From Phocaeicola vulgatus ATCC 8482 (GTDB lineage Bacteria; Bacteroidota; Bacteroidia; Bacteroidales; Bacteroidaceae), in the NCBI RefSeq assembly GCF_000012825.1, contig NC_009614.1:868001-932000 (forward strand): 64,000 nt of DNA, written 5' to 3'. Shown piece by piece: positions 52,578 to 61,418 of the stretch (positions are counted from its first letter, which is position 1; every line of letters begins with the position of its first letter). Position numbers and translations under genes: made by a program. The notes below the pieces were generated by a model, which did not search any database, had not been told where the DNA came from, and saw only the letters and a list, made by a program, of their open reading frames with translations.

Positions 52578-52653
52578 GGTGCCATAGCTCAGTTGGTAGA
52601 GCAAAGGACTGAAAATCCTTGTGTCCCCGGTTCGATTCCTGGTGGCACCACCA
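52578..52653 (+). tRNA. tRNA-Phe (GAA)
   Basis: Acceptor GGTGCCA/TGGCACC, D-arm GCTC..GAGC, anticodon stem AAGGA/TCCTT with loop CTGAAAA (anticodon GAA), T-arm CCCGG TTCGATT CCTGG, and an encoded CCA at 52651-52653. The 3' half is the probable integration site of the downstream mobile element. Confidence 0.96.
52619..52653 (+). other. Candidate left attachment site (attL) at the tRNA-Phe 3' end
   Basis: A tyrosine recombinase gene begins about 470 bases past this tRNA 3' end, the usual arrangement for tRNA-targeting integrative elements. The matching attR copy would be beyond 64,000, so the exact core cannot be read here. Confidence 0.6.
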
Positions 52654-52685
52654 AAGAAAGTACATAAATGCTTTTCACGCATGAA

Positions 52686-53048: not shown

Positions 53049-53125
53049 TAACATTTCGCTCCATATCCTCATGCCATCCGGTTTTGACGAAACAATTGAA
53101 TGTAACACCTCAAAAAACAAAAGTG

Positions 53126-54361
53126 ATGAAACAAGGAACAATGAACATTCTGTTTTTCGTGCTTAAAACGAAATTGTTGAAAAACGGTGAGGCACCGGTA
53201 TTGATGCGGATAACCATCAATGGAGACTATGACGATGTACGTATCCAAAGAAGCGTACCCCTGAACTTATGGAACGCCGCCAAAGGATGCAGTAAAGGCA
53301 GGGACAGGGCATCAGTGGCACTGAACGCCTATATTGCCGAACTGCACGCACGCGCCTTGGAAAAACACAAGGAACTGGTATTGGAACAGGCCCTGATTAC
53401 CCCAAAACTGATTCTTAAACGTGTTTTCGGGAAAGACACCGAAATGCGTACACTGCTCGGCACCATGAGGGAAGGCATCAAGGAAATGGAAACACTGGCG
53501 GGTATAGACTACTCTCCCGTCACGATCAACCGGTATAAGAACGTGGTGAAGAAATTACAGCTGCTCATCCCCTCTTATTATGGAAAGGAGGATGTCACTT
53601 TCCATGAGCTGACACCGGAGTTCATCCGTGCGTTTGACATTTACCTGAAAACGGAGGCGGGACTGTGCCGGAACACGATAGTCCGTTATATGAAATGCTT
53701 CAAGAAATTTACCAATATGGCATTGGCAAAGGAATGGATGCGCAAGAATCCCTTTTACGGTTACAAGATGGAGCAGGACGAGACCGATCCGGTATTCCTG
53801 ACCTACGACGAGTTGCAGACCGTAATGAAAAAGAAATTCACCATTCCACGGCTTGAACTGGTCAGGGATGTCTTTGTCTTTGCGTGCTTCACCGGTCTGG
53901 CATTCTCCGATGTTGCCAGTCTGAACAAAGAGAATCTGGTACAGGACAATCTCGGAGACTGGTGGATAAGAAAAGGAAGGGTCAAATTGGAACACCGTAG
54001 GAAGGCCTCTTCCATCAGCAATATTCCATTGCTGCCCGTACCCCTGGCCATATTGGAGAAATACAAGGAACATCCGACCTGCATTAAGAAAGGATGCTGT
54101 TTGCCCGTCATGTGCAACCAGAAGATGAACAGCTACCTCAAGGAAATAGCCGATTTCTGCGGCATTAAGAAGAATCTGACCACGCACGTTGCCCGTCACA
54201 CTTTCGGGACTACGGTCACGCTTGCCAACAATGTGCCTCTTCAAGATGTTTCCGTCATGCTCGGCCATGCCTCCACACGTATGACACAGCATTATGCACG
54301 GGTCATGAACAGCAGCCTGAAAGAAGCAATGAACACCGTGAAGGAGCGTCTTGCACAATAA
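53126..54361 (+). CDS. Tyrosine recombinase/integrase of the tRNA-Phe element
   Basis: 411 residues from the ATG at 53126; the frame opens earlier only with a TTG at 53084. An N-terminal arm-binding-like domain (MNILFFVLKTKLLKNGEAPV, about 5-90), a SAM-like core-binding domain (about 100-205) and the catalytic domain (about 225-400) are in order. The C-terminal motifs are HVARHTFGT (His-x-x-Arg) and LGHASTRMTQHYARV (His and nucleophile Tyr). In the first catalytic box, TGLAFSDVASL, the usual Arg is Ala, as in other Bacteroides recombinases of the IntDOT group. It integrates and excises the element. Confidence 0.92.
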   Translation: MKQGTMNILFFVLKTKLLKNGEAPVLMRITINGDYDDVRIQRSVPLNLWNAAKGCSKGRDRASVALNAYIAELHARALEKHKELVLEQALITPKLILKRVFGKDTEMRTLLGTMREGIKEMETLAGIDYSPVTINRYKNVVKKLQLLIPSYYGKEDVTFHELTPEFIRAFDIYLKTEAGLCRNTIVRYMKCFKKFTNMALAKEWMRKNPFYGYKMEQDETDPVFLTYDELQTVMKKKFTIPRLELVRDVFVFACFTGLAFSDVASLNKENLVQDNLGDWWIRKGRVKLEHRRKASSISNIPLLPVPLAILEKYKEHPTCIKKGCCLPVMCNQKMNSYLKEIADFCGIKKNLTTHVARHTFGTTVTLANNVPLQDVSVMLGHASTRMTQHYARVMNSSLKEAMNTVKERLAQ

Positions 54362-54380: not shown

Positions 54381-54408
54381 AAGCCGTCCCCTAGGGATGG
54401 CTTTTTTT
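54381..54408 (+). terminator. Terminator after the integrase gene
   Basis: AAGCC-TCCC and GGGA-GGCTT stem with loop CTA, followed by seven T; begins 19 bases after the stop. Confidence 0.88.
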
Positions 54409-54445
54409 GTAATCTATAAATCACAATATCCTGCCGTCCTTTCAA

Positions 54446-54606
54446 TTTCTTACCTGCAAATATAGCCATTTGTCGGGTTGATTGCGCAAGGCGGCCCCTT
54501 TCAGGGGCTGGTTGGCTAAAAGAAAATCATCCTCGCTTCGCTGCGGTATTTTCTTTTGCCAAGCCTTGCTCAATCCCCGACAAAGGACAGCCCGGCAAGT
54601 AAGAAA
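54446..54606 (+). ncRNA. Structured multi-branched element, copy 1
   Basis: The outer ends pair over about 12 bases (TTTCTTAC-TGC), then TTTGTCGGG/CCCGACAAA, then TGATTGCGCAAGGC with GCCTTGCTCAATC. Inside are a GCCCC/GGGGC hairpin with loop TTTCA and a second arm TTGGC-AAAAGAAAAT with ATTTTCTTTTGCCAA that carries a loop containing TCGCTTCGCTGCGG. The same design occurs at 59373. It sits after the integrase terminator and before the small gene at 54660. I do not recognise a named RNA family. It could be an RNA leader or a DNA structure used by the element. Confidence 0.7.
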
Positions 54607-54615
54607 ACGAAAATC

Positions 54616-54631
54616 CGGCTCCATGGAGCCG
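54616..54631 (+). promoter_or_regulatory. Leader hairpin, copy 1
   Basis: 16-base perfect palindrome CGGCTCCATGGAGCCG, 28 bases before the ATG at 54660; the spacer ends in an A-rich stretch that also occurs after the hairpin of copy 2. Confidence 0.65.
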
Positions 54632-54659
54632 ATCATGTCAAACTTAAAAAAATAAAGGT

Positions 54660-54935
54660 ATGAACAGAAAGACGACAAGCAAAGGACAGCAGGAAGCCAA
54701 TCCGGAAATGACGATGTTGGTTTATCGGGAAATGAGCTATCCTGCACGGGAAGTGCAAGGCAAAGATGGGAACTATCTGGTTTCCGTAGAAAGACTGGAA
54801 CAGGAACTGCTGGATGGCATCAGAAGCCTTGATCCGGCAGCATTCGATTTGGACGAAGAAATCGCTTACTATTGTTCGGACGAAGAGATCCGCCTGTTGA
54901 CGGACGATGAACTGGAAGAAATGATTTACGGCTGA
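54660..54935 (+). CDS. Small acidic protein of unknown function
   Basis: 91 residues, basic N-terminus (MNRKTTSKGQQE) and strongly acidic C-terminal third (LDEEIAYYCSDEEIRLLTDDELEEMIYG). No signal or membrane segment. Sequence YLVSVERLEQELLDGIRSLD is predicted helical. It is the first gene after structured element copy 1 and begins a co-directional set of unknown genes. No known family recognised. Confidence 0.6.
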   Translation: MNRKTTSKGQQEANPEMTMLVYREMSYPAREVQGKDGNYLVSVERLEQELLDGIRSLDPAAFDLDEEIAYYCSDEEIRLLTDDELEEMIYG

Positions 54936-54955
54936 CATTTAAAAAAGTAATGATT

Positions 54956-56083
54956 ATGAATGAAACAACAGCAAAGGTCTGCGAAGAGCAAGTAGCAGAC
55001 CTTACCATAGAGAATGCACACAGGGTCACGATGATCCGGAAAAAAGGTACGGACTATCCCCCCGTACCGTTCCATTTCAGAAAGGAGCATCATGGAACGG
55101 GCAACTATGTACACCTGTACGAAAATCCGGAAGATCACAATGAATTGCATTCCAAGGACTTCAAAGACTGGGAAGCCGTAGCATTCAAACATCCTGCCTA
55201 TTTGGATGATATGTGGAAACAGGCTTGCGACGCATACGCCTGGAGTTCCTTCAATCCGGAGATTCGCGGCGAGACGGACATCATGATTTACGGAGAGGAG
55301 CTGCACAACGACCTGCAACTCATGCCGGAAGAGGAACGGGATACATACATCGCCGCCTACCGGCAGAAGTTGTCCGCCCAGCTCTCGGTCCTCTCCCGCT
55401 GTGCCAACCCGATGGTGACGGGACGGAGCGGATTTGATTACTACAGGCAGGAAAAAACGAACAGAAGCTATCAGAACCGTTACGAAGAATTCCGCAATTG
55501 GCGGAAAAAAGTTCTTGAAACCGTCAGACGGAAAAAGGAAGCCGCACGACCGGAGGAAGAGAAACAGGAAAAGGCATGGCAGACGCTCAAACGCGACATC
55601 AAGAGCAGTGCCGATACCATCCACGGGATTGATACCGGACAATGCCGGGGCTATAGCCGTGCCCTGTTTGTCAGCAGCATCCTGAACAAGGTATCCACCC
55701 TGGCCAATCACGGGGAAGTGGAAATCGTCCGTAGGGCCGTGGACTTCATTTCCGAATATAACGCAAGGGTGAAGAAACCCGTCATCACACCGAGAAACAA
55801 ATTCTTCCAATTGCCGGAACTGGCGGAACGGATGCGCGAAAAGCTGAAAGCGATGCAAAGCCGGGAAAACAAGGAAGTGCCGTTCGAGGGCGGGACACTT
55901 GTATGGAACTATGGGGAAGACCGCCTTCAGATCCTGTTTGACAGGATTCCCGAAGACAGCAGACGAAAGGAACTGAAATCCTCCGGATTCCGCTGGTCAC
56001 CCAAAAACAAGGCATGGCAACGGCAGCTTACCTCCAATGCCCTCGGTGCCGCAAAAAGATTGTTGGACCTTCAAAACATCTGA
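54956..56083 (+). CDS. Unknown cytoplasmic protein with C-terminal ICE/phage-type domain
   Basis: 375 residues from the ATG at 54956 (another ATG two codons upstream). It has a charged N-terminal region (about 1-130), a long basic helical middle (RNWRKKVLETVRRKKEAARP, about 180-210) and a C-terminal domain (about 305-375) reading EGGTLVWNYGEDRLQILFDR and KSSGFRWSPKNKAWQRQL. The last motif (SGFRWSP-KNKAWQR) recurs at the ends of several phage and conjugative-element proteins. I cannot assign a function. It is followed 3 bases later by the next gene, so likely one operon. Confidence 0.6.
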   Translation: MNETTAKVCEEQVADLTIENAHRVTMIRKKGTDYPPVPFHFRKEHHGTGNYVHLYENPEDHNELHSKDFKDWEAVAFKHPAYLDDMWKQACDAYAWSSFNPEIRGETDIMIYGEELHNDLQLMPEEERDTYIAAYRQKLSAQLSVLSRCANPMVTGRSGFDYYRQEKTNRSYQNRYEEFRNWRKKVLETVRRKKEAARPEEEKQEKAWQTLKRDIKSSADTIHGIDTGQCRGYSRALFVSSILNKVSTLANHGEVEIVRRAVDFISEYNARVKKPVITPRNKFFQLPELAERMREKLKAMQSRENKEVPFEGGTLVWNYGEDRLQILFDRIPEDSRRKELKSSGFRWSPKNKAWQRQLTSNALGAAKRLLDLQNI

Positions 56084-56086
56084 GCC

Positions 56087-56980
56087 ATGAAAAACGACAA
56101 TTTGAGATTCATCATTGATTCACGTTGCTTTGACGGCAGTTGCGTGACCGTCATGTCTGATGGGATACATAGTGATTATGGTCACGAAACACTGGAAGAA
56201 TTGAGGGACAGGGAAAATAACCCCAGCCTCATTGCCGTGCCCGGAAATACCGTCCGCAAGATGATACGCATCCACCTGCAGTCTCTCTGCGCCCCGTTCT
56301 GTGAAATTACGGAAGAGGACTATTTTGACTATATGGACACCCAGCCACCCATCCGGCACACCCGGAATTTCTTTTTCATGAGCGAGCCGTATCATGCCGG
56401 CATTCACCGGTTCTGCTTCCGGATAGACGGACGGTATTTTACGGGGCTGCGTTCCGTGAACACACCAAGAAAGGATTTGGAACAGCAAATGGACAGACAT
56501 TACCGGAAGGTCACATTCAAAGGCGGCATCCTCAAAGAAAAACCAATGGGAATATTTGACCATACACGGCATAGTTTCACAGTTATAGTCCCATATCTGT
56601 TCCTTGACAAAAATGGAGAGAAGAAATTCATCTGCAACCTGGTGAAAGGTACGGACGAATCCTCCGGCAAGGATGCAAGACAGGAAACAGCCAGGGTTCT
56701 CCAAAGCTTGCGCCGCCATCATTTCCTCTACTTTTCCGGCTATGAGGGAAACGACGATATGGGCAGATTCCTGGAAAGAGTGGTGCAAAACAGACATACC
56801 CTGTCAGCAAACGGGGATTTTCTGCAATATCCCACCAACCGAGAGTCTGTGTCTTTCGCCGGAACGGTCAAAGAAACAGGGGAAAAGTTCTTTTACCGCA
56901 TCTACGACCTGGAACTATTCCATTACCTGCTGTACAAGCTGCGGAGCATCAGAATGGAAAAGAAGGAAGTGCAGGCTTGA
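56087..56980 (+). CDS. Unknown protein of the integrative element
   Basis: 297 residues with no signal peptide or membrane segment. Conserved-looking stretches are FFFMSEPYHAGIHRFCFRID, FKGGILKEKPMGIFDHTRHS and LQSLRRHHFLYFSGYEGNDD. It begins 3 bases after the preceding gene. No motif of known function was seen. It could be a defence, anti-defence or regulatory protein by context only. Confidence 0.55.
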   Translation: MKNDNLRFIIDSRCFDGSCVTVMSDGIHSDYGHETLEELRDRENNPSLIAVPGNTVRKMIRIHLQSLCAPFCEITEEDYFDYMDTQPPIRHTRNFFFMSEPYHAGIHRFCFRIDGRYFTGLRSVNTPRKDLEQQMDRHYRKVTFKGGILKEKPMGIFDHTRHSFTVIVPYLFLDKNGEKKFICNLVKGTDESSGKDARQETARVLQSLRRHHFLYFSGYEGNDDMGRFLERVVQNRHTLSANGDFLQYPTNRESVSFAGTVKETGEKFFYRIYDLELFHYLLYKLRSIRMEKKEVQA

Positions 56981-56987
56981 ATCAGTA

Positions 56988-57023
56988 TGCAGGATGGGTT
57001 CCCGGCAGGGTTTCCATCCTGCA
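56988..57023 (+). promoter_or_regulatory. Intergenic hairpin before the gene at 57056
   Basis: TGCAGGATGG pairs perfectly with CCATCCTGCA around a 16-base loop, directly after the stop at 56980. No T-run follows, so it is not an obvious terminator; a translational or processing role is possible. Confidence 0.6.
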
Positions 57024-57055
57024 CATGTATCAGAAATCCAACAAAAAAACGCAAT

Positions 57056-57421
57056 ATGAACCATACAGACTTTTACGCCCGGATAAGGGCTATCAAAGAA
57101 ATGGAATACAGGGAATTGTATGCAGCCATAGAACTGCATGGAGCTTCCTATGAATGGAACAGCAATGATGGGGAATGCCCCGTCATTGCTGTCAATACAG
57201 GCAGCGTACAACCGGCTCCGGCTGATGTGCTGATTTGCAGGGTTACCATGGAGAACGGCAACTTGCGCCTCTATGGTGTGGAGAATGAATACGGGAATGA
57301 GGTAAACTTCCAGCCGGATGAAGCCTTTGCCGGACATCTGTCATATATCATAGATTGTTTGCCGCCCGTCAACGGAGTGGATGATGTGACAACATTAAAG
57401 ACAGAGGAGGAAGCGGTATGA
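57056..57421 (+). CDS. Unknown small protein of the integrative element
   Basis: 121 residues from the ATG at 57056, which follows an A-rich stretch; a longer frame starting at 56987 would run through the hairpin. Sequence is acidic, with IRAIKEMEYRELYAAIELHG and a beta-rich second half (PVIAVNTGSVQPAPADVLIC). The stop overlaps the next start by 4 bases (ATGA), so the two proteins are translationally coupled. Family not recognised. Confidence 0.55.
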   Translation: MNHTDFYARIRAIKEMEYRELYAAIELHGASYEWNSNDGECPVIAVNTGSVQPAPADVLICRVTMENGNLRLYGVENEYGNEVNFQPDEAFAGHLSYIIDCLPPVNGVDDVTTLKTEEEAV

Positions 57422-58398
57422 AGAAGGAAAAACAATCCTGGACGGACTATGTTCCTCATTCGGTCAGCCTCTATTACGTGGACTACCGGGAGAATTTGGA
57501 CAGCCATGATGATTTGCAGGAGCAGTGCATCCGTCGGAACAGTCTCGGTCCGTTGGAAGAACAAATCCTGGAGTGGTATGCCGATCAGGAACATGACAAC
57601 CTGCAAGGGTATCTCTCGGAGATACGGAATGAGATGGAAGCGGACGGGAAATCCGCCGAATATATCCGACATGAGGAGAAGATAAAAGACCTGCTTTACG
57701 AACGGAACAATACCGATCCGGCAGAAGAACTGATAGACAATTCCGCTGTAACCAATATGTTCTACTCCCTTGGAGTCGAAATCGAGGGCTATGTGTACGG
57801 AGGCTGTGGGCGCGGAGAATCCGAAACGGTCTCTCTTCGTAAAATCAGACGAGCGCTTCAACTGAAGGAAGGGCTGTTTACCGATGAACTCCATGAACTT
57901 CTGGTCAATGCTCCGTACGGTGGCGAACTCCGCATCTATTTCAATGCCATATTCTCCAGACTGATTACGGGAGATACTTCACATGATTTCAAGCGCATCC
58001 GATTCTATGGAGGTGTCATTGTTGCTATTGTAGACAGCCGGAATGGTGCGGGGTATCATGTAAGTCTTCAGACTGACATCACCCTTCCGTTCTACAGGGA
58101 CAATCTTTTTGTGGATTCTCAGGTACATTATTCCTATGCGAATGAAATTTGCGGGTTGTTGAACAGCTGGTGTGATTCCACCCGTTGGGAAACCGGAATG
58201 ATGCCTCTGGAAGCCACTTTGCAGAAGAGTCACATAAATGAATATCAGAAGCAGGAAGCTCTTTATGAAAAAAGGTTTCGGGAAGGCGGATGTACTTTTG
58301 GAGACATGAACCATAAACGTCACAGAGATACCTATTATATAAACAGCTTCCCATGCGGTACCAAATGTCCGCATTGCGGCACGTTTTGGATTGACTGA
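57418..58398 (+). CDS. Unknown protein with a terminal Cys pair
   Basis: 326 residues. An acidic helical N-terminal part (about 1-110) and a beta-rich middle (RIRFYGGVIVAIVDSRNGAG, about 193-212). The C-terminus reads FPCGTKCPHCGTFWID, which has one CxxC and a further Cys; this could be half of a zinc site or a redox pair. It starts inside the stop of the preceding gene. I do not recognise the family. Confidence 0.55.
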   Translation: MKKEKQSWTDYVPHSVSLYYVDYRENLDSHDDLQEQCIRRNSLGPLEEQILEWYADQEHDNLQGYLSEIRNEMEADGKSAEYIRHEEKIKDLLYERNNTDPAEELIDNSAVTNMFYSLGVEIEGYVYGGCGRGESETVSLRKIRRALQLKEGLFTDELHELLVNAPYGGELRIYFNAIFSRLITGDTSHDFKRIRFYGGVIVAIVDSRNGAGYHVSLQTDITLPFYRDNLFVDSQVHYSYANEICGLLNSWCDSTRWETGMMPLEATLQKSHINEYQKQEALYEKRFREGGCTFGDMNHKRHRDTYYINSFPCGTKCPHCGTFWID

Positions 58399-58428
58399 AA
58401 ACAGACGAGTCTTTTACACATCTTGAAA

Positions 58429-58920
58429 ATGAATAAAACTATGGATAATCAAAGAACAAAGATGCTGGGTGAGAACCTGACGCACTACAGAAATCTTCAG
58501 GAGAACGGCTCTGTAAACCTGATTGAATTTCACACAACCGACAACCGGAAATTCGGCATCGGAAATCCGGATGCCATCAAGCTGTTGCTCTCGGCAGCCG
58601 TTACCGAACTGGAACGCCAGCTCCATATAGCGCAGTCCGGAGGTTTACCGGAACGGTTGGAACAAAGCCGGGAGTATAAGGCGGCAAAGGCACTGGAACA
58701 GGCACTGAATGATACGGGATTCAGTCCCGAACGTTTTGCAGAGACACTCCCGTTTTTCCATAAGACCTTGGAACAGACATTTTTCAAAACAATAAAGGCA
58801 TGTATTATCGCCATGGCAAAACGTGAGTCGTGCCGGATTGACAGCCGAAATCAAGCGTCTTACGAAATGTGCCGGATGCTCGCGCCCATGCTGGAAGATA
58901 CCGACTTACCCTTTATTTGA
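58429..58920 (+). CDS. Unknown helical protein of the integrative element
   Basis: 163 residues from the ATG at 58429; the frame opens upstream only with a TTG at 58423, and an ATG at 58441 is also possible. It is largely alpha-helical by composition (AIKLLLSAAVTELERQLHIA, KAAKALEQALNDTGFSPERF) and has no known motif. It is followed by a terminator-like hairpin at 58945. Context is unknown ICE cargo. Confidence 0.55.
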   Translation: MNKTMDNQRTKMLGENLTHYRNLQENGSVNLIEFHTTDNRKFGIGNPDAIKLLLSAAVTELERQLHIAQSGGLPERLEQSREYKAAKALEQALNDTGFSPERFAETLPFFHKTLEQTFFKTIKACIIAMAKRESCRIDSRNQASYEMCRMLAPMLEDTDLPFI

Positions 58921-58944
58921 CGACATGGAATTCAAGTATGACCG

Positions 58945-58985
58945 AAAAGCGGACTCCAGTGCTGAAAAGCCGGAGTTCGCTTTTT
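58945..58985 (+). terminator. Terminator-like hairpin, copy A
   Basis: AAAGCGGACTCC pairs with GGAGTTCGCTTT (one G-T pair), loop 14 bases, followed by TT. The copy at 59331 has the same shape with compensatory changes. Confidence 0.8.
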
Positions 58986-59014
58986 CATTGTTTAACAGAT
59001 AAAACACCAAAGTT

Positions 59015-59305
59015 ATGAAAATCCTGAATGAAGAACATTTCGAGAACGTAAAGCGCTATGCCGAATCCATTGGTGACACCTCACTTCAAAAGTGCTTGGA
59101 ACGGTTGAAGAGTTGGGAAGGGAATCCTGACTATCCCAGTGAGATTTCACTCTACTATGACCATGCCCCATACTCGTTCGGCTTTACCCAGCATTATGCT
59201 GATGGAAGAATAGGTATCGTAGGAGGTCTGCTCTATCACGGAATACCGGACAAATCATTTGCCGTGACATTGCAGCCGTTCCACGGATGGCAGATACATA
59301 CCTGA
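59015..59305 (+). CDS. DUF4120-family protein
   Basis: 96 residues, close to the length of the family. It has the order MKILNEEHFENVKRYAESIG, a central ISLYYDHAPYSFGFTQHYAD and the C-terminal HGIPDKSFAVTLQPFHGWQI that I remember for DUF4120 proteins from Bacteroides mobile elements. No function is established. It is bracketed by the two related hairpins at 58945 and 59331. Confidence 0.72.
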   Translation: MKILNEEHFENVKRYAESIGDTSLQKCLERLKSWEGNPDYPSEISLYYDHAPYSFGFTQHYADGRIGIVGGLLYHGIPDKSFAVTLQPFHGWQIHT

Positions 59306-59330
59306 AAAACATGAAACTTGACAATGACCG

Positions 59331-59371
59331 AAAAGCAGACTTCAGAACAGAGAATCCGAGGTCTGCTTTTT
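59331..59371 (+). terminator. Terminator-like hairpin, copy B
   Basis: AAAGCAGACTTC pairs with GAGGTCTGCTTT (one T-G pair), followed by TT. It begins directly before structured element copy 2, so transcription from the DUF4120 gene should stop here. Confidence 0.82.
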
Positions 59372-59372
59372 C

Positions 59373-59537
59373 ATTTCTTGCTGTAAAGATAGCCGTTTTC
59401 CGGGCTGATTGTGCAAGGCGGCCCCTTTCAGGGGCTGGGTTGGCTGAAAGAAAATCATCCTCGCTTCGCTGCGGTATTTTCTTTCGCCAAGCCTTGCCGC
59501 AATCCCCGGAAAACAGACTGGAAAGACATCAAGAAAT
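59373..59537 (+). ncRNA. Structured multi-branched element, copy 2
   Basis: Same architecture as the element at 54446. Outer stem ATTTCTTG-TGT, then TTTTCCGGG/CCCGGAAAA, TGATTGTGCAAGGC with GCCTTGCCGCAATC, the identical GCCCC-TTTCA-GGGGC hairpin, and arm TTGGC-GAAAGAAAAT with ATTTTCTTTCGCCAA. Paired positions that differ between copies change on both sides, while the inner loops are identical. Confidence 0.7.
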
Positions 59538-59543
59538 AAAAAT

Positions 59544-59559
59544 GCCTACCCATGTAGGC
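59544..59559 (+). promoter_or_regulatory. Leader hairpin, copy 2
   Basis: GCCTAC/GTAGGC stem with loop CCAT, 27 bases before the ATG at 59587. It takes the place of the CGGCTCCATGGAGCCG hairpin of copy 1 with a different sequence and nearly the same spacing. Confidence 0.65.
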
Positions 59560-59586: not shown

Positions 59587-59865
59587 ATGGAAACACTGGA
59601 TTATAACCAGCTGCTGCTTGTCTCCCTGTGGCAATACAACCACCACGGGGATGAAGGGCTGACTCCTGCACTTTTCGAGGAAACGTTCGGAAAGGTCTAT
59701 GGAAGTCACTATTACGAAAAATGGACCGGCTACTTCAATCGGAATCTCTGGGACATGATTGCCTATTTCAGAAGCGAGAAGGAGAACGGACAGAAGTTCT
59801 GCGACATGGTTACCCGTCAGGTCAAATTGTATCAACAAAAACGATCTCAATATGAAGTACGGTAA
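59587..59865 (+). CDS. Small unknown protein of the integrative element
   Basis: 92 residues, METLDYNQLLLVSLWQYNHH at the N-terminus, followed by an acidic-aromatic centre (EETFGKVYGSHYYEKWTGYF) and a basic tail. No signal or membrane segment. It is the first gene after structured element copy 2, and its end overlaps the start of the next gene by 14 bases. Family not recognised with confidence. Confidence 0.55.
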   Translation: METLDYNQLLLVSLWQYNHHGDEGLTPALFEETFGKVYGSHYYEKWTGYFNRNLWDMIAYFRSEKENGQKFCDMVTRQVKLYQQKRSQYEVR

Positions 59866-60658
59866 TTTTTATGACCTGGAAAGTCTGACTCTGCTCAACA
59901 GGCATGAAGGGTGTGCCTGCTCCATAAAGGAATGTGATGTAGAGAAGGTGAACCGGCTGATTTCAAGGATGCGGGAGGACAGGGAAAGAGTCGGTTTACC
60001 GACTGCAGGAGACGTTATCACTTATATCACCCGTGGCGGTGACTATTATCCGCAGGCACACATTGAAAGGGGCGATGACCGGGAAGTTCATATCTGCCTT
60101 CTCCCACAGACACCTTTTTGCCATGAAAATGAAAAGTGTACCGGTTACAATACCGAAGGAGGCCCTTGGGTTACAACCGGTCCGGAATTGCTGATTCCCG
60201 ATGGCATACGCAGCAAACAGTTCCGGATGTGGGGGCATACCGGAAGGCACAGGAACGGTGCCGTCCTCTTCCACACATTCGTCAGGGCATGGAAATACAC
60301 GGAACCCGATCCTCTGTACGAAAAGTACACCACAAAAGAATGGACGAGATACCTCATCGAGTGTCAGCCGGATATTGAACCGGCTGATGCCTTTGTCTAT
60401 CGGAATGAGGCATTCACCCTTTACTCGCGGGAAGAACTGGAACGGCTGGTCGGGATTCTGCACGGAAAGCTTTTCAACGGATTCCGTCCCGGTCTGTTCA
60501 TACTCTGGGCATACCGTATGGAATGGAAGGAACTTCCCGCATGGGAATGGAACATGCTGAAAGCGGACACCCATCTCTCTTTCCTTGGCATTTCTCCCGT
60601 CAGGATACAGACTGACCACAAAAGACATATAGTAACAATCTATAAAAAATCAGAGTAA
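59852..60658 (+). CDS. Unknown ICE protein, possibly DUF4121
   Basis: 268 residues from the ATG at 59852, which overlaps the preceding gene; the longer frame from 59759 adds 31 residues lying inside that gene. The opening MKYGNFYDLESLTLLNRHEG and ECDVEKVNRLISRMREDRER match my memory of DUF4121 proteins from Bacteroides conjugative elements, but I cannot confirm this. Cysteines and histidines are spaced through the centre (CLLPQTPFCHENEKCTGYN). No catalytic motif is clear. Confidence 0.6.
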   Translation: MKYGNFYDLESLTLLNRHEGCACSIKECDVEKVNRLISRMREDRERVGLPTAGDVITYITRGGDYYPQAHIERGDDREVHICLLPQTPFCHENEKCTGYNTEGGPWVTTGPELLIPDGIRSKQFRMWGHTGRHRNGAVLFHTFVRAWKYTEPDPLYEKYTTKEWTRYLIECQPDIEPADAFVYRNEAFTLYSREELERLVGILHGKLFNGFRPGLFILWAYRMEWKELPAWEWNMLKADTHLSFLGISPVRIQTDHKRHIVTIYKKSE

Positions 60659-60659
60659 T

Positions 60660-61418
60660 ATGGTACCATACAACACACCGCAGACGATACGTCCGCTTGA
60701 GAAAATGGTCTGTGATTTCGCCTATTCGAACGGCTACGATCCGATATCCGTTTTCAACGATTTCCTGCGTTATGTCATTCACGGGTTCTCTCCCGGCGCA
60801 CCGCCCCTTATGGACTGGAAATACAAACGGCAGCAGAACAGGCATTTTATGGAAATGCTTACCGGATGGATACGGCTCATGCAGCGGGAATTGCAATCCG
60901 GCGGATGGTTTGATGCGTTCGGTGACCTCTTCATGGCAATATCCTCCAAAAGCGGTCGGCAGGTGAACGGACAGTTCTTCACTCCGCCGGATATCTGCGA
61001 CCTGATGGTCTTATGTACCGATTCGGGGGAGACAGCGACAGGGAAACGTATCTGTGACCCGACATGCGGAAGCGGAAGGCTGCTGCTGGCATATCATGTA
61101 CGCCACCTGGGTAATTATCTGGTTGCAGAGGATGTCAGCCGTACCTGTTGCCTGATGACCGTTTGCAACATGCTCGTACATGGCTGCATAGGTGAGGTCA
61201 TCCACCATGACAGCCTCTGCCCCGAAAACTTCATGGACGGCTGGATGGTAAACCATACACTGACCCAGACGGGCATTCCCTCCATTCGCCGGATGAGTGA
61301 GGAGGAATATCGGACAAGCAGGAACATGTCCGTTGACCTGCTCAGAAAGCGGAAAGAGAAATTGCGCCAAATGCAGCCTGGCAAGAAACAATTGCCATAT
61401 AAACAACAAAATTTATAA
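60660..61418 (+). CDS. N6-adenine methyltransferase-like protein lacking a visible NPPY motif
   Basis: 252 residues. An alpha-helical N-terminal part (about 1-95) precedes the Type I-like MTase region: GQFFTPPDICDLMVL (about 103-117) and SAM-binding motif I DPTCGSGRLLLAYH (about 139-152), then AEDVSRTCCLMTVCNML. The N6-adenine catalytic motif NPP(Y/F) normally comes about 40-60 residues later; at that point the sequence reads DGWMVNHTLTQTGIPSIRRM, with no NPP. The protein may bind SAM without methylating adenine, or use another residue. Begins 1 base after the preceding stop. Confidence 0.7.
   Translation: MVPYNTPQTIRPLEKMVCDFAYSNGYDPISVFNDFLRYVIHGFSPGAPPLMDWKYKRQQNRHFMEMLTGWIRLMQRELQSGGWFDAFGDLFMAISSKSGRQVNGQFFTPPDICDLMVLCTDSGETATGKRICDPTCGSGRLLLAYHVRHLGNYLVAEDVSRTCCLMTVCNMLVHGCIGEVIHHDSLCPENFMDGWMVNHTLTQTGIPSIRRMSEEEYRTSRNMSVDLLRKRKEKLRQMQPGKKQLPYKQQNL

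Follow-up and report, generated by a model that had tools for sequence, protein, structure and literature searches.

Two copies of a multibranched, strongly folding element stand in front of genes in a 64,000-nucleotide stretch of the Phocaeicola vulgatus ATCC 8482 genome (RefSeq assembly GCF_000012825.1, contig NC_009614.1, positions 868,001 to 932,000 of the forward strand; hereafter the window), which raises the question of what nucleic acid folds there, from which strand, and to what end. Our analysis of both copies and their relatives indicates that each is probably a promoter formed only in the single-stranded DNA of the strand that an integrative and conjugative element (ICE) transfers. 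We propose a single-stranded promoter because a stable hairpin appears to form from the template strand of the next gene, a housekeeping promoter box lies open within it, the adjacent DNA is duplex, and the Frpo promoters of plasmids F and ColIb-P9 provide a precedent.

An open promoter box within a covarying fold

The initial annotation had recognized two copies of about 160 bases each, at 54446-54606 and 59373-59537, with a nearly constant inner part and diverged outer stems that still pair, and alignment of the two copies bears this out. The outer stems read TTTGTCGGG/CCCGACAAA in copy 1 and TTTTCCGGG/CCCGGAAAA in copy 2, a G-C pair having become T-A and a T-A pair C-G, and one A-T pair of the long inner arm has become G-C. 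The location was right and the ends were too short: the structure runs from about 54433 to 54621 in copy 1 and from 59361 to 59550 in copy 2, both on the minus strand, and comprises an outer clamp, a bubble, a spacer stem, a GCAAGGC stem and two inner hairpins. We rejected a plain recent duplication carrying flanking DNA, since the upstream flanks of the two copies are unrelated. Folded as RNA, the copies have z scores of -7.2 and -6.65, with none of 200 dinucleotide-preserving shuffles equal; as minus-strand DNA they fold at -52.5 kcal/mol (z = -7.5) and -52.4 kcal/mol (z = -9.0), again with 0 of 200 shuffles equal, and the plus strand of copy 1 folds at -50.9 kcal/mol (z = -7.8). The element had been said to match no named family, and a known RNA family was indeed rejected, as Rfam covariance models over the whole window gave two tRNAs only at gathering score, and copy 1 alone gave a single match at E ≤ 1, scoring 16 bits where the gathering score is 50.

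The count of two holds for the window and falls short of the genome, in which blastn places the element at eight sites; its tip pattern with a variable middle also occurs eight times. Counting the P. vulgatus genome itself each time, blastn gives matches in 21 of the 301 Bacteroidaceae genomes searched. The tip pattern is present in 19 of 61 genomes at genus level, in 4 of 295 at order level and, in a slightly longer version, in 2 of 395 at class level. Blastn matches also lie in four plasmid records of Parabacteroides and Phocaeicola and in two unannotated 'phage' records; the tip pattern read backwards is absent among the matches listed. From 112 distinct copies with enough flank, one false match (viral contig L179) was dropped, and the remaining 111 were thinned by shared 8-mers to 58. 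They were collected by a longer core pattern, as an 18-base pattern was unspecific and drew many unrelated G+C-rich loci; because collection used the exact tip pattern, the set is no measure of tip conservation. The copies come mostly from Bacteroidales records or unnamed relatives, with one from a metagenome-assembled genome labelled Clostridiales (L067). A search for elements without the core, by box, CAAGG and partner, over 648,637 bases returned 81 candidates, 65 of which have the core; two of the 16 core-less candidates have a partner score of 11.

On the plus strand the element reads, in order, a T-rich outer arm, GCAAAnnTA, a spacer of 19 to 24 bases, CAAGG, a small hairpin, a long hairpin, CCTTG and a mirror outer arm. 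The long hairpin has an A/T-rich stem and the tip AATCATCCTCGC..CGGTATT (core at 54525-54550 in copy 1 and 59453-59478 in copy 2). Read on the minus strand, the 3′ arm carries TAnnTTTGC, the reverse complement of GCAAAnnTA, and thus the Bacteroides -7 box TAnnTTTG. The consensus of the Bacteroides primary sigma factor is TAnnTTTG at -7 with TTTG near -33 (PMC7366714; this and the other PMC records are cited from excerpts of their text). In copy 1 the box is TATATTTGC on the minus strand (GCAAATATA on the plus strand) at 54456-54464, within the bubble, and CCTTG lies 22 nucleotides from it at 54487-54491, as a candidate -33 box. In copy 2 the box, TATCTTTAC at 59383-59391, departs once from TAnnTTTGC, and CCTTG again lies 22 nucleotides away, at 59414-59418. 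At least six of the seven fixed letters of TAnnTTTGC are present in 107 of the 111 copies, and the six of TAnnTTTG are complete in 68; mononucleotide shuffles reached six of seven in 28 of 2220 trials. The distance from box to CCTTG is 19 to 24 bases and is exactly 22 in 59 of the 107.

Covariation surrounds this box, which is kept open in a bubble. Pairing between the arms is 0.69 to 0.93 over the ten bases inward of the box, and falls to 0.14 to 0.57 over TAnnTTT (positions 0 to 6). On the outer side it recovers at once, with 0.95 and 0.93 for the first two bases, and over a stretch of more than 20 bases it exceeds 0.7 in most places. When right arms were swapped between elements, pairing dropped from 0.85 to 0.58 in the spacer and from 0.85 to 0.62 in the clamp, and in the box it went from 0.28 to 0.40; the spacer-only score averaged 20.1 with own arms and 8.7 with swapped arms. 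Many arm positions use three or four pair types, as at position -5 (TA 15, CG 16, AT 13, GC 10). A fold with compensatory changes, as proposed from the two copies, is supported. The initial annotation saw the fold and was silent on the outer-arm promoter box, on the bubble and on the conjugative element.

The folding strand, the genes and the conjugative element

The two strands can be told apart by the mismatches that their pairing tolerates. We aligned the left arm to the complement of the right arm with an equal penalty for every mismatch, so that the alignment itself favours neither strand, and counted isolated mismatches, leaving out the box itself and going no farther than 24 positions past its inner edge. 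On the plus strand, A·C outnumbers G·T by 80 to 20 in the 58 elements (p = 1e-9), by 65 to 16, 45 to 8 and 31 to 5 in thinner sets of 46, 33 and the 22 least related elements; other common mismatches are A·A (25) and C·T or T·C (27). A first count had given 93 to 21, stricter flanks gave 54 to 8, and counted by element A·C leads in 35 against 5, with 18 ties. Since an A·C excess on the plus strand equals G·T on the minus strand, the latter is indicated as the folding strand. The DNA folding energy is also better for the minus strand in 53 of the 58 elements, by 3.0 kcal/mol on average; in 300 random windows the difference had a mean of 0.36 and a standard deviation of 2.97, so single elements say little and the set alone is informative. 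Judged from these patterns in the sequences, the minus strand, the template of the downstream gene, is probably the one that folds. A selected single-strand fold, as first proposed, is upheld by these results, and the mismatch asymmetry and DNA energies favour single-stranded DNA for it; an RNA fold was rejected as the preferred reading on the mismatch asymmetry. The strand originally read was probably the wrong one, the favoured minus strand being the strand opposite the downstream gene's mRNA.

The elements stand at a regular distance from genes. A plus-strand open reading frame (ORF) of at least 60 amino acids follows in 54 of 58 cases, and its ATG lies 74 to 126 bases past the core in 53 of 58. 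In both window copies the mirror outer arm is followed by a leader with a small hairpin (54615-54632, which also scored as terminator-like on the minus strand, and 59544-59559, terminator-like on both strands) and then by ATG. The gene behind copy 1 (54660-54935, plus strand) encodes 91 amino acids with no Pfam match and opens a plus-strand run; those behind copy 2 (59587-61418, plus strand) encode a 92-residue protein of unknown function, a DUF4121 protein and a protein with an N-6 DNA methylase domain. Among the 54 first downstream proteins, Pfam recognizes DUF4121 (4), DUF4120 (4) and YpsA (2), NCBIfam PRK13660 (2), the sigma-70 family (2) and, weakly, one further family, and PADLOC ShosA (2) with one weak Cas11d match.

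Both window copies lie in an ICE that we take to be about 83 kb long, because 28-base repeats of the tRNA-Phe 3′ end occur at genome positions 920629 and 1003690; the left, att-like repeat is at 52629-52656 of the window (plus strand), and the other begins at G000:C1:1003690. The ICE encodes an integrase, TraG, ParA-like and MobC-like proteins, a relaxase, a coupling protein, a histidine kinase and a sigma-54-type response regulator. The plus-strand genes behind the elements extend to genome position 933715 and are directed toward the relaxase gene at 950812. In between, the tra genes occupy the other strand and are interrupted by three plus-strand genes (L157:4349-7660, genome 944349-947660), one with a GmrSD restriction domain (PF03235). 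A third, divergent element of this ICE, at genome position 990136 (L159, G000:C1:990136-994773), stands shortly before PRTRC genes (PRTRC_E, Prok-E2_D, ThiF), which may be an early-expressed module. In the second ICE of the same genome, elements and relaxase are both on the other strand.

We compared element and relaxase strands for 80 elements of 12 genomes, drawn from the tip-pattern matches in the genus and the order; 57 of these elements have a relaxase gene within 100 kb on the contig, a limit that may join parts of different mobile elements. Element and nearest relaxase gene share a strand in 53 of the 57 cases and are opposed in 4; one of these four, G293, has a relaxase on either side and shares the strand of the more distant one. 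The other three (G168 C80 and G693 C35), 18 to 24 kb from the nearest relaxase gene, may belong to a neighbouring element. As to a position in the leading region next to oriT, 29 of the 53 same-strand elements precede the relaxase and 24 follow it. The relaxase gene typically enters last (PMC11541004), in agreement with the polarity in which the minus strand would be the transferred strand. Of the sources on oriT polarity and Frpo, PMC5729914 and PMC3817090, the excerpted text of the former gives no polarity.

A proposed single-stranded promoter and its alternatives

In the mechanism we propose, the minus strand of the ICE would enter the recipient during conjugation as the single-stranded T-strand and fold on itself. 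Its 3′ arm would serve as the non-template strand, with CCTTG as candidate -33 and TAnnTTTGC as -7 box of a Bacteroides housekeeping promoter, the latter already opened in the internal bubble and the neighbouring DNA made double-stranded by self-pairing; the A/T-rich inner hairpin may help as an UP-like element. RNA polymerase could then load and use as template the 5′ arm followed by the adjoining single-stranded DNA, yielding mRNA of the plus-strand gene before a complementary strand exists. Second-strand synthesis would abolish the structure, and expression would therefore be early and transient.

The closest precedents are the Frpo/ssi promoters of F and ColIb-P9, which are known single-stranded promoters in which a hairpin from the transferred strand carries promoter boxes in its stem and which occur in repeated copies before early genes (PMC9849209, PMC11541004). 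The elements studied here are likewise stable hairpins from one strand, the template of the next gene; they stand directly upstream of genes, with a uniform strand relative to the transfer genes, and hold a housekeeping -7 box in the stem, the -33 box being matched in part (CCTTG). They differ in having a Bacteroides -7 box instead of -10/-35 boxes, in their multibranched form with a distinctive tip, in occurring, in this analysis, on integrated elements, and in the coincidence of bubble and box. As a control, the best-folding window upstream of ssb in F, a region identified as Frpo2 (PMC9849209), folds at -83.9 on the ssb-templating strand versus -76.0 on the other, and a second F region at -31.0 and -33.4. 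The leading genes and first tra genes of F are mostly on one strand, and a DNA methylase is encoded in the stretch before oriT, to be compared with the N-6 DNA methylase-domain gene after copy 2. Neither copy showed sequence homology to Frpo in blastn against a 22-kb F stretch, the best match having E = 0.48. The EGeRS1 sequences of pLS20-family plasmids are also repeated, branched, conserved and placed before establishment operons, but their authors think a single-strand promoter highly unlikely, partly since the transferred strand is the non-template strand there (PMC8708921); in the elements studied here, the folding strand is probably the template strand. The host element is of the same kind as CTnDOT-type Bacteroides ICEs in its integrase, TraG, ParA-like and MobC-like proteins, relaxase, coupling protein and regulators. 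We take the window ICE to resemble CTnDOT, and its histidine kinase and response regulator presumably resemble RteA/RteB. Among the matches listed in our search of the open-access literature, no report described single-stranded promoters in Bacteroidota or CTnDOT-type ICEs.

Several observations weigh against a single-stranded promoter. The box motif was noticed in the same sequences before it was counted, its consensus being independent of them; the candidate -33 box is CCTTG rather than TTTG; among 124 candidate duplex promoters, the -33 spacing had no peak and no usual value. Pairing is also weak (0.36 to 0.62) at positions -11 to -15, a region of variable spacer length close to the CAAGG stem, and in the spacer-only test 29 of 58 own scores exceeded the 95th percentile of swapped arms. 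The A·C excess could have arisen from cytosine deamination on the minus strand, which would then still be the single strand. Leftward, antisense ORFs of at least 60 amino acids occur in 34 of 58 cases, so that the fixed ATG distance is the better evidence for a downstream gene; at 80 amino acids or more there are 24 leftward and 41 downstream. The first genes are mostly unknown. In the window ICE, tra genes lie between the relaxase and the elements, which are 23 to 28 kb from it, and the 24 same-strand elements that follow the relaxase lie 3 to 74 kb beyond it, where early expression would help less. Finally, no -10-like site with five of six letters was found in the F control fold.

One alternative is a folded T-strand that only loads polymerase or primase for priming of the second strand, without expressing the next gene. 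Such an initiation site would account for elements late in the transferred strand, and Frpo also primes DNA synthesis, to go by the title of Masai and Arai 1997 as cited in PMC11541004; a pure priming site needs no gene, yet an ATG stands at a near-fixed distance in 53 of 58 elements, and we regard this explanation as unlikely. A cis-acting RNA, folding in a plus-strand transcript from an upstream promoter and controlling the downstream gene by antitermination or in a riboswitch-like manner, would suit the position before genes, the strong RNA folds given above and the repeated branched leaders of pLS20 establishment genes (EGeRS1, PMC8708921). A plus-strand RNA should tolerate G·U, however, whereas A·C is four times as frequent; it would also give no reason for a conserved TAnnTTTG box in a bubble on the opposite strand, and no Rfam family reaches gathering score, which together make an RNA quite improbable.

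The arrangement CCTTG-N22-TAnnTTTGC also reads leftward on ordinary duplex DNA, which speaks against our proposal and for a promoter of antisense RNA with an incidental palindrome. Such a promoter could work with one arm alone; the opposite arm nevertheless covaries, using all four pair types, and does not pair with the box, so we consider this promoter very unlikely. Equally remote in our view is a folded site of recombination or transposition, either resembling attC or being a small mobile element of hairpin form. The many copies beside genes and the presence or absence of one copy before DUF4120 (described below) would suit it, but box, bubble and spacing would have no role there.

Neighbouring features and implications

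The tip stem and loop enclosed by the fixed parts of the pattern differ from copy to copy in both length and sequence, many being self-complementary, and the flanking bases are common to the copies; these shared bases are perhaps a protein site. A d(GNA) mini-hairpin at the tip on the minus strand would fit TTC, TAC, TGC and TCC and does not fit longer tips such as CGGAGG, and it was not used as evidence. Upstream of copy 1 lies the tyrosine integrase gene of the ICE (53084-54361, plus strand; Pfam PF00589, PF13102, PF17293), with a terminator-like hairpin 3′ of it at 54381-54403 (plus strand). When terminators were sought by strict criteria, 4 of 57 elements had one upstream (against 0 in a control stretch), and we therefore do not claim that elements always follow a terminator. 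At 58920-59015, the DUF4120 gene of the window ICE has a T-run hairpin directly before its leader; in a sister ICE and in relatives (L004, L148, L078) a copy of the element occupies that place, and from this comparison of sequences the window ICE seems to have undergone a natural loss of one element. The N-6 DNA methylase-domain protein encoded behind copy 2 (60660-61418) has no restriction partner among the genes examined and possibly provides protective methylation.

Single-stranded promoters have been shown for enterobacterial plasmids, with look-alike candidates elsewhere, for instance in an insect-gut element (PMC11541004); in the excerpted main text of that paper, on leading-region promoters, no word begins with 'Bacteroid'. 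We lean, somewhat more cautiously than for the window copies themselves, toward the broader view that the conjugative elements of Bacteroidales have a single-stranded promoter family of their own, probably of separate origin from Frpo, in which a sigma-ABfr -7 box is open in a bubble. Grouped in sets of one to six near a single relaxase gene, such elements would launch a zygotic programme of unknown small proteins, a solitary DNA methylase and PRTRC proteins before the DNA becomes duplex, and the tip may dock a dedicated factor. Bacteroidales ICEs are important vehicles of gut gene transfer. If the proposal is true, it would identify what turns on their first genes once they reach a new host, and would mark the unknown genes that act at entry. 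The elements would further allow the transferred strand to be inferred from sequence, and would offer a promoter with a built-in bubble for studies of sigma-ABfr.

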